Shown here: in pieces, positions 467 to 41,484 of the stretch | Layout of the letters: each line of letters opens with the position of its first letter | Position numbering within the stretch: the first letter of the stretch is position 1 | DNA from: Sulfurihydrogenibium azorense Az-Fu1 | GTDB taxonomy: Bacteria > Aquificota > Aquificia > Aquificales > Hydrogenothermaceae | Assembly: GCF_000021545.1 (NCBI RefSeq) | Contig: NC_012438.1 | Span: 434,001-498,000 of the forward strand | Reading direction: 5' to 3' | Length of the DNA stretch: 64,000 bases | Notes under the pieces: model-generated | Database searches by the model: none | Told to the model about the DNA's origin: nothing | Seen by the model: only the letters and a program-made list of their open reading frames with translations | Translations under genes and position numbers: made by a program

Positions 467-493
467 GACTAAAAACCTGGTAAACCAAAGTGT

Positions 494-499
494 ATTATA
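494..499 (-). promoter_or_regulatory. Possible -10 box for guaB at the transposon end
   Basis: A perfect TATAAT on the minus strand overlaps the stop codon of the upstream tnpB and lies about 27 bases before the chosen guaB start. No good -35 is visible at 16-18 bases. It may be formed by the end of the element plus the first flanking base. This is inference only. Confidence 0.35.
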
Positions 500-2177
500 G
501 ATTCATACACTCTGGGCTGGGGTATTTGTATTCCGCCTTATTCAGATGCAAGCAACCCCCAGCTGGCGGTATTTTGCTTGCATCATAGCCCCTACCCCAA
601 GAAGTAGGAACTATCCCTAAATCGTGTTTCAAATCTTCTATTGCCTCTTTGGTTTTGAAACACGATTTATTTACTACCCTATCCCAATCCCCTTCTACCA
701 GTATTGGCTTTAAGGGTGATAAGTCTCTACTTAAAGACTTACCCAGAATAGGGATAGTAAGGGCTACCTTTACAACTTGCCACAGTTTATAGCTTGTCCA
801 ATACAAGCCCCTCATCTGTTCCTTCCTCTGGTTTACAGCCTCTTGGGTCTGTGGCTCACTGTAAAGGCTTTGGATTATCCTTATCTGTTTACTTAAATCG
901 TTTATATTTTTTATTATTGGTTTTCTTTTATACTGATTGTTTTCTGTTTTTAACTTCTCTTGTGTTTTTTGTTTTTCTTCTTGTAGTCTATCTTGTGCAA
1001 AGTTTAAATACTCTCTGTCTGTTATTAGTTTTTCGTAATTCTTAGGTAGTTTTTCTTTAAATCCTAATGCTTTTCTTCCTATTACAAATGCTCCTGCTAT
1101 GTCTTTGTCTAAATTATACTGTGGTGCATACTTTAATGACCCTACAATAGATGTGTATGCTGGATTTACTTGTATTACTTGTATTCTCTTTCTTTTGGCA
1201 AGTATTTTTATCTTGTCTAACAAGCCTTTGTATATCCATTGTTGTTTTATTTTTCTCAGTTTCTTACTCCCATCTCCTTTACTGCCTTTTGGTATGTCTT
1301 TTAAGTTTTCTATTGCTATTGCCTTATTTCTTTCTTTAGCAATGTCTGTTATTTGGTGTGCTATTTGCCAAGATATGTATTCTCTTTGGTTTTTTGTCTT
1401 GTTTAAAAGATTGTGTAAATATAATTTCTCTATATTTTCTAAATTGCCATCTTTCTTTACAAAAGCCATTGCTATGTGAAATGGATTTGCGTTTATGTCT
1501 ATCCCTATTACTCCGTTGTCTTTTGTTATTATTGGTTCTTCTGTCTTTATTTCTTCGTAGTTTATAAATGCGTAGAAATCGTTGTTTATCTTTCTTATCT
1601 CTACTGAGTATGGGAAATACTGGTTTGTTTGGTTTGCTTGTATTAGGTCTGCTATGAAGTTAGTCCATTTATCGTTTTGTCTGTTTACTGCTCTTTTTAT
1701 GTTTGCTTTTATCCAGTTTCTTTCTCCTGTGTTTATTCTTAATATTATTTTATCTTTCTCAAATTCTATTCTTGTATTTAGGTTTCCTTTTTTAGATTTA
1801 TCTCCTCTTGAGTATAGGCAGTGCTTTCTTCTATCTTGCCATTTTTGTTTTAGTTTTTCTCTGTATTTTCCGTTTATGTGTTTGTTTTTAAGGAGTTGAA
1901 ATAGTCTTTTACCTCCAAATATAACTTTTTTAGGATTTTGTTCTCTTTCTATACAGTTGTTTATTAGCCACTTTGCTTTGAATATTGCATCGTCTACGTA
2001 TCTTGAGTTTATGTTAAACATTTTTTGTAAATCTTTTTTAAGGTCTTTTCTTGAGTGTCCTTCAAGTAGTCTGTTGTATGAGTATTTAAAGCAGGAAGAG
2101 AATTTTCTCATTAGGTTTATCAACGTTTGTTTGTCTTTTTCGTTTTCAAAAGTTAGTTTGCAGTGTAGTGTTATCAT
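495..2177 (-). CDS. tnpB: TnpB-type RNA-guided nuclease/accessory protein, IS605/IS1341 group (no zinc finger)
   Basis: A 560-residue OrfB/TnpB protein of IS200/IS605-type elements. The RuvC-like core shows motif I ([11 protein letters not shown], Asp), motif II ([10 protein letters not shown], Glu) and a motif III region ([18 protein letters not shown], Asp present). The C4 zinc finger of typical TnpB is absent and replaced by a [10 protein letters not shown]-type segment, as in the larger IS1341-like lineage. About 130 residues follow motif III, and the last 35 codons overlap the candidate guide RNA. No tnpA transposase is nearby, so the element is not self-mobile. Start ATG at 2177 follows GAGAAAG. 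The three catalytic acidic residues suggest an active nuclease, but activity is not shown. Confidence 0.85.
496..600 (-). ncRNA. Candidate omega RNA (reRNA) at the 3' end of tnpB
   Basis: TnpB nucleases use a guide RNA transcribed from the 3' end of their own element, usually overlapping the tnpB coding end. On the minus strand this stretch has several perfect pairings: an 11-bp hairpin (584-574 with 555-545); CCGCC in its loop (569-565) with GGCGG downstream (537-533), which makes a pseudoknot; and GCTGGGG (563-557) with CCCCAGC (522-516). An alternative outer helix pairs TGGGGTA (599-593) with TACCCCA (524-518) and competes with the last one. The guide would start at the element end and run into the guaB 5' region. 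Structure is seen directly; the guide-RNA role is inferred from position. A similar motif occurs in the aclB leader. Confidence 0.6.
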
Positions 2178-2243
2178 TTTACTTTCTCATAAACACCTTT
2201 TAAGTTTTTTATAGTTAAGAGTTTTGGTTTCATAATAATTACT

Positions 2244-2272
2244 ATTATACAGTTTTTAATAGTTTCTGTTGA
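2244..2272 (-). promoter_or_regulatory. Putative tnpB promoter
   Basis: TCAACA (2272-2267) and TATAAT (2249-2244) are separated by 17 bases on the minus strand, about 67 bases before the tnpB start. Good -10, fair -35. Confidence 0.5.
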
Positions 2273-2322
2273 CTGTTTTTAACCTCCTGTTGATAAAAAT
2301 TATTTATATTTTAACATATTTA

Positions 2323-38096: not shown

Positions 38097-38136
38097 TTCA
38101 CAACTCCTTAATTTTAAAACAACGTTTTATTATTTC

Positions 38137-38166
38137 ATTATAACATTATGTTTTACAGTAAGTCAA
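38137..38166 (-). promoter_or_regulatory. Promoter of icd-osmC-cfiBA
   Basis: TTGACT (38166-38161) and TATAAT (38142-38137) with 18 bases between, on the minus strand, 41 bases before the icd start. A strong match to a housekeeping promoter. An AAAAC-AAC-GTTTT inverted repeat lies just downstream of the expected start (38116-38128). Confidence 0.78.
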
Positions 38167-38206
38167 GAAAAATCAAACAGTGTTTTATTATTAAATAAAA
38201 TTATGC

Positions 38207-38212
38207 TATAAT
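38207..38212 (+). promoter_or_regulatory. -10 box of aclBA
   Basis: TATAAT on the plus strand; transcription would begin near 38219, at the very start of the structured leader. No good -35 is present, so an activator may be needed. Confidence 0.6.
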
Positions 38213-38225
38213 ACTCTGTATACAG

Positions 38226-38290
38226 TACCGCCTGCCGGAATTAATGGCGGAATAAAAATATTCCGGCCTACAAACCTCTATAGGTTTGTA
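38226..38290 (+). ncRNA. Structured leader of aclBA, pseudoknot plus hairpin
   Basis: Three perfect pairings: CCGCC (38228-38232) with GGCGG (38246-38250); GCCGGAAT (38234-38241) with ATTCCGGC (38260-38267), which crosses the first and makes an H-type pseudoknot or a switch; and TACAAACCT (38269-38277) with AGGTTTGTA (38282-38290). The aclB RBS follows at once. The first two helices and the joining GGCGGAATAaAAATA closely match the 3' end of tnpB at 511-570 on the minus strand. It does not match a riboswitch I know. It is either a regulatory RNA or a transposon-end remnant. Confidence 0.65.
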
Positions 38291-38306
38291 AGAAGGGAAG
38301 GGTAGT

Positions 38307-39614
38307 ATGGCTCAGAGAGGAATAAGAGAATATGATGGAAAGAGAATTATAGCCCAAAACTGGAAAGATTACTTTGGTGATGCCTTTGAGTACGATTTTA
38401 AATCTGTGTTAGTAACTCCTGAAACAGATTTTGAGAAACTTCCTGAAGAACATCCTTGGTTAAAGACCACTCCTTTGGTAGCAAAACCGGACATGCTTTT
38501 TGGAAAAAGAGGAAAGTTAGGTTTAGTTTTATTTAAAATCAACGAACCGGGAGACGTTACTTACGAAGATGCGGTTAAGTGGATAAAACAAAAGATGCAG
38601 GAAGAAGTTGAGATTAACGGTGTAAAGGGGCATCTTACACATTTTTTAATAGAGCCTTTTGTTCCTCACAAACCAGAAGAAGAGTACTATGTAGCATTCT
38701 CTATGGGTGATGATTACGATACTGTTTACATGTCAGCCTTTGGTGGAATAGATGTTGAAGAGAACTGGGATAAAGTTTCTGAAGTAAAAATACCTCCTAC
38801 AGCTTCAGATGAAGAGATAGAAAAACTTATAAAACAAAACGTTCCAAAAGAGATAAAAGATAAAGAAAAATACGCAGATTTTGTAATTAGAGCTTATAAA
38901 ATGTTTAGAGACTTACATTTTGTTTACTTTGAAATAAACCCATTGGTTTTAGTTGGAAATAAGGCTTACCTATTAGACTTTGTTGGTAAAGTTGACGATA
39001 CTGCAGGATTTGTTGTTGGCAAAAAATGGGGAGAGCTTGAGTTTCCGTCTGGGTTTGGAAGAGATCTAACACCAGAGGAAAAGTATATAAAAGAGTTAGA
39101 TGAAAAATCTGGTTCTTCTCTAAAGTTAACGATACTCAATCCAGAAGGAAGAATATGGACATTAGTAGCAGGTGGTGGAGCTTCTGTTGTTTATGCTGAT
39201 ACAGTAGCAGATATGGGATATGTTAACGAGCTTGCAAACTACGGTGAGTATTCAGGAAACCCAACAAGAACAGAAACCAGAGAGTATGTAAAAACAGTTT
39301 TAGACCTTATGACAAGAAACAAACATCCATCTGGAAAACCTAAAATACTTTTAATAGGTGGAGCGATAGCTAACTTTACAGATGTTGCCAAAACCTTTGA
39401 TGGAATAATAGATGCATTTAAAGAGTACGCAGAAAAAATGAGGCAAGTGGGAGTAAGAATTTACGTAAGAAGAGGTGGACCTAACTACGAAGTGGGACTT
39501 AAAAAAATTAAACAGGCAGCTGAAGAACTTGGACTACCAATAGAAGTTTATGGTCCAGAACTTCATATGACAGATATAGTAAGAAAAGCGTTAGAAGAAG
39601 AAAAAGTAGCATAA
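38307..39614 (+). CDS. aclB: ATP-citrate lyase beta (small) subunit
   Basis: 435 residues. ATP-citrate lyase splits citrate to acetyl-CoA and oxaloacetate and closes the reductive TCA cycle. This subunit has the ATP-grasp and CoA-ligase beta-type parts: an N-terminal half resembling succinyl-CoA synthetase beta (LVAKPDMLFGKRGKLGLV, FEINPLVLV) and a C-terminal part (VAGGGASVVYADTVADMG, LLIGGAIANFTDVAKTF). In Aquificota its presence marks Hydrogenothermaceae-type cycles, in contrast to the citryl-CoA synthetase/lyase pair of Aquificaceae. Confidence 0.93.
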   Translation: MAQRGIREYDGKRIIAQNWKDYFGDAFEYDFKSVLVTPETDFEKLPEEHPWLKTTPLVAKPDMLFGKRGKLGLVLFKINEPGDVTYEDAVKWIKQKMQEEVEINGVKGHLTHFLIEPFVPHKPEEEYYVAFSMGDDYDTVYMSAFGGIDVEENWDKVSEVKIPPTASDEEIEKLIKQNVPKEIKDKEKYADFVIRAYKMFRDLHFVYFEINPLVLVGNKAYLLDFVGKVDDTAGFVVGKKWGELEFPSGFGRDLTPEEKYIKELDEKSGSSLKLTILNPEGRIWTLVAGGGASVVYADTVADMGYVNELANYGEYSGNPTRTETREYVKTVLDLMTRNKHPSGKPKILLIGGAIANFTDVAKTFDGIIDAFKEYAEKMRQVGVRIYVRRGGPNYEVGLKKIKQAAEELGLPIEVYGPELHMTDIVRKALEEEKVA

Positions 39615-39633: not shown

Positions 39634-41484
39634 ATGAGCAAACCTGAATACTTACTTTTTGACAGAAACACTAAGGCTATTTTCTGGAACCTTAACACAA
39701 ATGCTATTCAAAGGATGTTAGACTACGACTATGTAGTTGGAAGAAGTCCAAGTATAGCAGCAATAGTAGCTCCAACTTCAGAAAGATCTTTTGAAAAGTT
39801 TTTCTATGGAACAAAAGAGATAATAATACCTATTTATAAATCTACAAAAGAAGCTGCAAAATTCCATCCAGAAGCTGATGTTTTATTAAACTTTGCTTCT
39901 TTTAGAACGGCGTATCCTGTTACATTAGAAGCATTTGAGATACCTACAATAAGAACGATCATAATCACTGCAGAAGGTATACCAGAAAGATTTGCTAGAG
40001 ATATGAGGATAAAAGCTAAACAACTTGGTAAGTGGATTATTGGTCCTGCTACAGTTGGAGGTATAGCACCAGGAGCTTTCAGAATAGCAAACACAGGTGG
40101 AACAATAGAAAACATAATTGCGTCTAAACTCCATAGACCCGGTTCAGTTGGATTAGTGACAAGATCAGGAGGTTTATTTAACGAACTTTCCAACATAATC
40201 GCAAGAAACGCTGATGGTGTAGCAGAAGGTATAGCTATAGGTGGAGATAGATTTCCAGGGTCAGACTTTTTAGACCATATGCTAAGATTTGAGAAAAACC
40301 CTCAAGTTGAATTTATGATACTTCTTGGAGAAGTTGGTGGAGAGGCGGAGTACAAAGTAGTAGAAGCTGTTAAAAACGGACTTATTACAAAACCTGTGAT
40401 AGGTTGGTGTATTGGAACAATATCGAAATTCTTTGGAGGAGAAGTTCAATTTGGACACGCCGGAGCTAAGGCAGGAGTTGACAGAGAAACAGCAGACGCT
40501 AAAAATAGAGCAATGAGAGAAGTAGGAATCCACGTTCCAAACAACTTTAACGAACTTCCTCACGTAATAAAAGGAATATATGAAATGTTAAGAGGTGAAG
40601 GAAAAATCCGGCCTGTTGTAGAACCGGAAGTTCCTCCAATTCCTGAAGATCTCTCAAAAGCCATCAGAGAAGGAAAAGTAAGAAAACCTACAAACTTTAT
40701 ATGTACAATCTCTGATGATAGAGGAGAAGAAGCTACTTACTGTGGAGTTCCTATAAGTGAAGTTATTGAAAAAGGTTTAACGATAGCAGATGTTATAGGA
40801 TTACTTTGGTTTAAGCGTAAATTCCCTACTTGGGCATCTAATTTTATAGATATGGTTATTAGAGTAGTTGCAGACCATGGACCAGCAGTAGCAGGAGCTC
40901 ACAACGTAAAAGTAACAGCAAGAGCCGGAAAAGACCTAATGTCTTCGTTGGCAACAGGTATACTAGCAATAGGTCCAAGATTTGGAGGAGCTATAGACGG
41001 AGCTGCAAAATACTTTAAAATGGCTTATGAAAAGAACATGTTACCTCACGAATTTGTAGAGTATATGAAGAATGTTGAAAAAATACCTATTCCGGGAATA
41101 GGACACAGGGTAAAATCTACAAAAAATCCTGATAAAAGGGTAGAACTTTTAAAAGATTATGCTAGAAGAAACTTTCCTAAGGTTGAGCTTTTAGACTATG
41201 CGTTAGAAGTTGAAAAAGTAACAACCTCTAAGAAAGAGAACCTTATACTAAACGTTGACGGAACAATTGGTGTTTTACTAGTTGACCTGTTTAAAACTAT
41301 AGGTTACTCTAACGAAGAGATAGATAATATGATAGAAGCAGGTGCATTTAACGCTTTCTTCGTTCTTGGAAGATCTATAGGATTTATAGGTCACTACTTA
41401 GACGAAAAACGTTTAGATATGCCACTTTACAGACATCCAACTGATGATATCCTTTACGATGTAAAAAGACCTGAAGGAGTATAA
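39634..41484 (+). CDS. aclA: ATP-citrate lyase alpha (large) subunit
   Basis: 616 residues: an N-terminal succinyl-CoA synthetase alpha-like domain with the phospho-histidine loop FGHAGAKAG, and a C-terminal citrate synthase-like domain (IGPRFGGAIDGAAKYF, IPIPGIGHRVKS, GRSIGFIGHYLDE). It carries the phosphoryl and citryl intermediates and performs the cleavage. AAGGAGG lies before the ATG, 19 bases after aclB. Confidence 0.95.
   Translation: MSKPEYLLFDRNTKAIFWNLNTNAIQRMLDYDYVVGRSPSIAAIVAPTSERSFEKFFYGTKEIIIPIYKSTKEAAKFHPEADVLLNFASFRTAYPVTLEAFEIPTIRTIIITAEGIPERFARDMRIKAKQLGKWIIGPATVGGIAPGAFRIANTGGTIENIIASKLHRPGSVGLVTRSGGLFNELSNIIARNADGVAEGIAIGGDRFPGSDFLDHMLRFEKNPQVEFMILLGEVGGEAEYKVVEAVKNGLITKPVIGWCIGTISKFFGGEVQFGHAGAKAGVDRETADAKNRAMREVGIHVPNNFNELPHVIKGIYEMLRGEGKIRPVVEPEVPPIPEDLSKAIREGKVRKPTNFICTISDDRGEEATYCGVPISEVIEKGLTIADVIGLLWFKRKFPTWASNFIDMVIRVVADHGPAVAGAHNVKVTARAGKDLMSSLATGILAIGPRFGGAIDGAAKYFKMAYEKNMLPHEFVEYMKNVEKIPIPGIGHRVKSTKNPDKRVELLKDYARRNFPKVELLDYALEVEKVTTSKKENLILNVDGTIGVLLVDLFKTIGYSNEEIDNMIEAGAFNAFFVLGRSIGFIGHYLDEKRLDMPLYRHPTDDILYDVKRPEGV

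Follow-up and report, generated by a model that had tools for sequence, protein, structure and literature searches.

A folded leader precedes the ATP-citrate lyase genes

The window analysed here, a 64,000-nt stretch of the Sulfurihydrogenibium azorense Az-Fu1 genome (NC_012438.1, positions 434,001 to 498,000 of the forward strand), contains the ATP-citrate lyase genes aclB and aclA, preceded by a structured leader. We verified the sequence and coordinates of the leader as first described, with a pseudoknot, a hairpin, and a Shine-Dalgarno (SD) sequence upstream of aclB. In particular, the leader RNA (38228-38290) comprises an H-type pseudoknot, formed by crossing helices of 5 bp and 8 bp, followed by a 9-bp hairpin, and then by the SD sequence. 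The features of the locus are:

about 38171-38189, no strand: operator-like palindrome AAACA-N-YGTTT plus flanks, centred at about −40 of the aclB start
38207-38212, plus strand: −10 box TATAAT of the extended type (TG in front), which lines up across all six acl promoters that have the RNA
38228-38232 with 38246-38250, plus strand: helix A, CCGCC paired with GGCGG, 5 bp, nearly invariant
38233, plus strand: single U between helices A and B
38234-38241 with 38260-38267, plus strand: helix B, GCCGGAAT paired with ATTCCGGC, 8 bp, crossing helix A
38251-38259, plus strand: A-rich linker AATAAAAAT, with AATANAARTA conserved across most of the RNA family
38269-38277 with 38282-38290, plus strand: hairpin H, TACAAACCT paired with AGGTTTGTA, 9 bp, perfect, with a 4-nt loop
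38293-38302, plus strand: SD-like sequence AAGGGAAGGG
38307-39614, plus strand: aclB, ATP-grasp subunit of ATP-citrate lyase, ATG at 38307 (profile match succinyl-CoA ligase beta-like, below the named cut-offs)
39634-41484, plus strand: aclA, with CoA-ligase and citrate-synthase domains

The position of the −10 box places the predicted start of the acl transcript near 38219, and the pseudoknot would thus cap the 5′ end of the mRNA. The A-rich linker is positioned to serve as the groove-crossing loop of the pseudoknot. When computed with a model lacking pseudoknots, the leader folds with an energy of −35.1 kcal/mol (z = −2.94), and 1 of 200 shuffled sequences is equally stable. No transcription terminator was found between 37600 and 39000. 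The region 38100-38340 matches no Rfam family at the gathering threshold, in agreement with the original prediction, which could name no riboswitch class for this leader.

A conserved palindrome lies upstream of the acl promoter

A search of the plus strand at the aclB promoter found no σ70 site with a −35 element. The promoter had been described as one without a −35 element, and that much stands, but it is not simply −35-less: a conserved palindrome lies at about −40. The palindrome AAACA-N-YGTTT is present 30-33 nt before TATAAT in 10 of 12 tabulated acl upstream regions, irrespective of whether the leader RNA is present, with the 12 regions having been picked from 30 for seeming to hold the palindrome (it is more distant in L004, and L017 was left uncounted). 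In its extended form the palindrome has 11 matches in the genome, both strands together (7 places), versus 1 for the control. Places of the palindrome lie near genes, named by Pfam, for a fumarate reductase/succinate dehydrogenase-type flavoprotein, a nuoH-like NADH dehydrogenase subunit, a malate/lactate dehydrogenase, and an acetyl-CoA synthetase. Judged from the sequence, these places near reverse-TCA and related genes are a candidate regulon of some factor. Because the palindrome sits at about −40, the lack of a −35 element would be explained by activator-dependent transcription, which is probably how acl is transcribed.

The palindrome also occurs at 38117-38131, between the isocitrate-dehydrogenase-like gene idh and aclB, and at another genomic place near an AhpC-like gene. 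The divergent idh has a near-consensus σ70 promoter at 38166-38137 on the minus strand (TTGACT-18-TATAAT, 11/12, with TG before the −10).

The leader belongs to a widespread pseudoknot RNA family

The pattern ACCGCCTGC..GGCGGAA occurs in 16 of 41 genomes of the family Hydrogenothermaceae, and its reversed control occurs in none. A covariance model, R1, built with helix B only and partly from the acl leader, gives 104 matches in 35 of the 41 genomes, and the feature thus extends beyond acl. With this model, to which it contributed, the acl copy reaches 63.8 bits. Across the phylum, R1 matches 84 of 136 genomes and 23 of 30 genera. A pattern scan of named genomes places the RNA also in Thermosediminibacterales, Thermodesulfobacteriota, and others, although its 85 stretches include clear chance matches, such as coding ones in Flavonifractor.

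For structural comparison we used 170 copies. Of these, 102 are from the family (the 104 matches less L170 and L171, dropped at 27.8 bits as likely coding) and 68 are from elsewhere (70 matches less L248, at 26.2 bits, and L278, a duplicate of L263), the latter being a selection of the matches listed (40 stretches plus loci already in the set). Solo copies number 113 of the 170, a figure that holds for a selected sample and should not be taken as a rate across genomes. Within the family, 53 of 102 copies are solo, including 7 with less than 300 nt of upstream sequence, where a TnpB gene could be missed, and 49 adjoin TnpB or TnpB remnants. Of the 170 copies, 146 are on the coding strand and no more than 60 nt from a start codon.

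In copies linked to TnpB, three helices all cross one another (strand order X A B X′ A′ B′), and hairpin H follows. The geometry of the core is fixed: the spacing between A and B is 1 nt in 158/170 copies, and the linker between the 3′ strands of A and B is 10 nt in 159/170. The proposal that the two crossing helices are alternatives of a switch is therefore not borne out; both stay paired, as a single pseudoknot. Standard pairs fill 98.6% of the cells of helices A and B (65 rows, 61 distinct sequences of the family), and both-sided changes occur at 9 of 12 pairs (2 of 5 in helix A, and all 7 counted in helix B). In 500 shuffles, which ignore kinship, none reached any of the five observed measures of pairing and covariation in A and B, and sliding the structures by 1-3 columns lowers pairing to 30-51% of cells; the alignment was fitted to helix B and not to helix A, and one of its rows is a TnpB remnant (rpsM). 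This comparative covariation supports the view that the folded leader before aclB, which prediction places at the 5′ end of the aclBA mRNA as had been proposed, is a genuine RNA structure that has been conserved. The RNA structure in the leader is very probably under selection.

A helix X of at least 7 bp can be formed in 56 of 57 TnpB-linked copies and in 80 of 112 solo copies (Fisher p = 7e-6, kinship ignored), and nearly all copies that lack it are ones that have lost their link to TnpB. The acl leaders have no clear helix X: the longest possible stem is shorter than 7 bp in five of six, and the stem is longer than the shuffled mean in two of six only (L104 and L044).

The leader is present at acl loci of one genus

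A match to aclB was found in 37 of 41 genomes of the family, and DNA upstream of acl was compared at 30 loci. The leader RNA is present in six of the seven genomes of the genus (G000, G035, G036, G037, G038, and G039). It is absent from the other 24 loci, namely that of the seventh member, G034, and 23 from other genera of the family, and a covariance-model search of these 24 gave no real match and one partial match at E 0.25. A related fold thus recurs in sister species, but only within the genus and not in every member of it. Because G034 and the other genera carry acl without the leader, the leader is dispensable in principle.

In an acl tree, several forks of which are weak, the RNA-bearing genomes fall into two clades: G000, G036, and G038, joined by G034 (support 95/96), and G035, G037, and G039. 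One gain plus one loss of the leader, or two gains, are equally short on this tree. The distance from the −10 box to the RNA, counted by eye, is 13-14 nt in all six leaders, and since this spacing is shared by all six we favour a single gain. Helix B changes between the two acl groups from GCCGGAA/TTCCGGC to GCTGGG/CCCAGC with pairing kept, and hairpin H is replaced as a whole, again with pairing kept.

The same RNA lies at the right end of IS607-type TnpB elements

The link to TnpB was first seen at locus L042, where a match to the pattern overlaps the 3′ end of a long open reading frame named TnpB-related by NCBIfam. Pfam gave no name to TnpB at its own cut-offs; NCBIfam identified it as TIGR01766, with 54 and 65 bits against a cut-off of 32 (copies L072 and L042). 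Among 30 TnpB loci retrieved, 26 were scanned, and R1 matches the 3′ end of all 26 at E 2.6e-8 or better. In L069, the open reading frame that immediately precedes tnpB encodes an IS607 transposase (NF033518, 223.7 bits, cut-off 110) carrying PF00239 and PF00376 (serine transposase with MerR-like domain). All three RuvC motifs are present in 17 of 18 aligned TnpB copies; the third was not found in L065. The window itself contains one such element:

476-2282, minus strand: complete IS607-type element inserted in the guaB SD, with ..CAACAGGAGG as the left flank and ..TTTACCAGG as the right end (boundaries placed by eye)
511-585, minus strand: second copy of the leader RNA, at the 3′ end of the TnpB gene (L087), R1 73.6 bits, helix X present
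669-2111, minus strand: tnpB, RuvC nuclease with catalytic motifs present (family identity from the related copies L072 and L042)

No IS607 transposase gene lies between the left end of this element and tnpB, and the region 300-800, containing the second RNA copy, has no Rfam match beyond chance level at E up to 10. The gene downstream of the element is, judging by its sequence, presumably guaB. The occupied site reads AACAGGAGG, then the element ending in ..TTTACCAGG, then TTTTTAGTC, such that the element sits between the guaB SD and start. The corresponding site is empty in all six sister genomes, where AGGAGG-TTTT is uninterrupted (..AACAGGAGGTTTTTAGTC in G038, with comparable sequences in the other five). 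Insertion occurred at the GG of the gene's SD, and the right end of the element supplies a replacement, 'CCAGG'. In several other copies of the element, the left end also follows AGGAGG or a near form (by eye). As far as the excerpted text of the two papers goes, IS607 recombination uses a GG overlap dinucleotide (PMC4058570), and one IS607 TnpB requires the TAM AGGAG (PMC11061315).

By analogy, the right-end RNA is probably the guide-RNA scaffold of TnpB (reRNA/ωRNA), and from its position it would guide the neighbouring TnpB. Upstream of the acl RNA, no similarity to TnpB was found in any of the six acl copies. An intermediate stage is present in the S. azorense genome, where the rpsM leader overlaps a stop-ridden TnpB remnant.

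Solo copies form conserved leaders of housekeeping genes

Grouped by downstream gene, solo copies among the 170 form orthologous sets before napA (18 genomes), htpX (10), rpoA (9), aclB (6), and trxB (4), along with some smaller sets. For htpX, 10 members of a cluster of 11 were counted, L158 being attached by a weak link. The rpoA set consists of all seven members of the genus and both g6 genomes, and the position of the RNA in the napA and rpoA leaders is kept over several genera. RpoA, TrxB, and HtpX were identified by NCBIfam, and NapA by best match, with a partial sequence below the cut-off; the names hfq, acpP, rho, infC, HPF, Hsp20, rpsT, rpsM, guaB, and LigB/MEMO-like were assigned by reading of sequences. 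The RNA is kept in five genomes with no TIGR01766 match in a single profile search (G014, G015, G016, and G034 in the family, and G098 in the order). One of the two RNA copies in G014 adjoins a TnpB remnant.

Three other distributions were observed. Genome G091 (1.5 Mb) has 28 RNA copies and 5 TnpB-family matches, and none of the five copies examined (L292-L296) is linked to TnpB, which suggests a spread of RNA-only, MITE-like units. In the uncultured genome CAKZQG01, a GCAGACC-type variant precedes start codons (L185, L207, L210, L212, L215, L231, L233, L246, and L251), with a trace of TnpB at only one of these copies. In Thermosediminibacterales, solo RNAs (L202, L239, and L249) stand upstream of orthologues of a LigB/MEMO-like gene (MGIVGC..) and may represent a separate domestication, independent of that in Aquificota.

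Discussion

We favour, with reasonable confidence, the reading in which the leader of aclB originated as the right-end RNA of an IS607-family TnpB transposon and is now fixed as a 5′-UTR module. The transposon origin itself is highly likely. An ancestor inside the genus would have received the element in its acl SD, a step read from the RNA alone; TnpA and TnpB would then have been lost, and the pseudoknot, the hairpin, and the SD retained. At acl, helices A and B, hairpin H, and the SD survive, and helix X and TnpB do not; we therefore propose a role in the mRNA itself. Specifically, the leader would work constitutively, protecting the 5′ end of the mRNA and leaving the SD accessible at growth temperature, with no ligand switch. 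For this putative role in stability or translation we put the chances at about even.

A different proposal keeps the protein in play: TnpB from intact copies would bind the pseudoknot and process, repress, or stabilise the acl mRNA, or take the acl start region as guide. TnpB co-occurs with the acl RNA (8, 7, 1, 11, 1, and 6 matches in G000, G035, G036, G037, G038, and G039, respectively, and none in G034, which lacks the RNA), its catalytic motifs are largely intact, and TnpB is able to process its own mRNA, according to the excerpted text of PMC10278001. However, the co-occurrence rests on seven genomes, the acl leaders lack the clear helix X that nearly all TnpB-linked copies keep, and solo leaders, among them those of napA and rpoA, are kept in genomes that have no TIGR01766 match. 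We regard a TnpB-responsive leader or guide source as unlikely, though not far-fetched. We are more doubtful still of a neutral remnant, an old transposon end without a role: nearly half of the family's copies (49/102) still adjoin TnpB or its remnants, and acl of G034 manages without the RNA, but pairing is kept through changes in B and H in the acl leaders and solo sets, and the position is unchanged in 18 napA and 9 rpoA leaders over several genera. Some solo copies may nonetheless be young remnants.

A ligand riboswitch responding to citrate, 2-oxoglutarate, acetyl-CoA, or a nucleotide, with the crossing helices as alternatives, would suit a compact pseudoknot with a conserved A-rich linker beside the SD, and in three of the acl leaders (those of G000, G036, and G038) the 5′ strand is able to occupy the SD by pairing (0.18-0.30 of SD positions at 65 °C). 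It is very unlikely, given the missing Rfam match, the core shared with transposon ends, the fixed geometry with A and B always paired, and the downstream genes (napA, rpoA, htpX, trxB, and many others), which are unrelated and lack functional coherence. Across the leaders, computed pairing of the 5′ strand with the SD is 0.08-0.30 in the six acl leaders, 0 to 0.12 in napA and rpoA, and up to 0.20 in one htpX leader (65 °C, model without pseudoknots); SD sequestration as a switch, weak in some acl leaders, near absent in napA and rpoA, and not conserved, was rejected. We give as little credence to the reverse direction, in which the leader RNA is older and was captured by TnpB elements as their end. 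Solo copies do outnumber linked ones in the examined set and span several phyla, but the remnant intermediates and the empty and occupied guaB sites run from element to leader, and singletons before unrelated genes look like insertions. Finally, there is next to no chance that the inverted repeats are protein-binding operators at the DNA level: the separate upstream palindrome does look operator-like, but A and B cross and covary, and the copies keep to the coding strand close to start codons.

Returning to the transposon-derived leader, we lean, by a modest degree, towards a broader claim: that the RNA half of TnpB systems has been domesticated alone several times, with IS607 right-end scaffolds becoming pseudoknot 5′-UTR modules with a nuclease-free function before napA, rpoA, htpX, acl, and trxB in Aquificota, and before the LigB/MEMO-like gene in Thermosediminibacterales. 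Among open PMC papers, as far as their excerpted text goes, we found neither this RNA described nor any report of conserved leaders formed by TnpB right ends; a survey of ncRNAs in Aquificales (PMC4227106) covers S. azorense and strain YO3AOP1, and its main text, as excerpted, does not mention the RNA. If the transposon reading is true, insertion of a transposon into an essential gene's ribosome-binding site need not kill the cell, the transposon's own end bringing a replacement site and a fold, and the reverse-TCA-cycle operon has a concrete leader of this kind.

The ωRNA (reRNA) of IS200/IS605 TnpB, as in ISDra2, is a right-end scaffold that overlaps the 3′ end of tnpB and takes its guide from flanking DNA. 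The RNA described here shares the right-end position and the overlap with tnpB, and its guide would be expected from the flank; it differs in belonging to a serine-recombinase (IS607) element, in being used without protein, and in that its scaffold role is deduced from sequence. H-type pseudoknot riboswitches such as preQ1-I and SAM-II have two crossing helices and an A-rich linker near the SD. The acl leader resembles them in these respects, but the RNA family shows no ligand logic in its downstream genes, has no Rfam match, and has transposon homology. Known exaptations of TnpB systems concern the protein, as in Cas12 and TldR. A guide-RNA scaffold kept alone as an mRNA leader, if true, would be a different route from either.

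The following two comparisons are with the excerpted text of the cited papers. RAGATH-18, from which the reRNA of the IS607 TnpB of ISFba1 derives, is alike in its IS607 TnpB element, in an RNA downstream of tnpB, in a pseudoknotted scaffold, and in an SD-like TAM, AGGAG; 10,258 of 16,029 RAGATH-18 RNAs adjoin IS607 TnpB, and the remainder do not (PMC11061315). In contrast, the acl-family RNA has no Rfam RAGATH-18 match (300-800 and 38100-38340), has a different fold, with three crossing helices X, A, and B, overlaps the 3′ end of tnpB, and has solo copies that are orthologous mRNA leaders. TldRs, TnpB homologues that have lost nuclease activity and been co-opted as RNA-guided regulators (PMC13418256), are likewise a TnpB system turned to the control of host genes, but here it is the RNA half that is kept, with TnpB absent in cis at acl and elsewhere still of the nuclease type.
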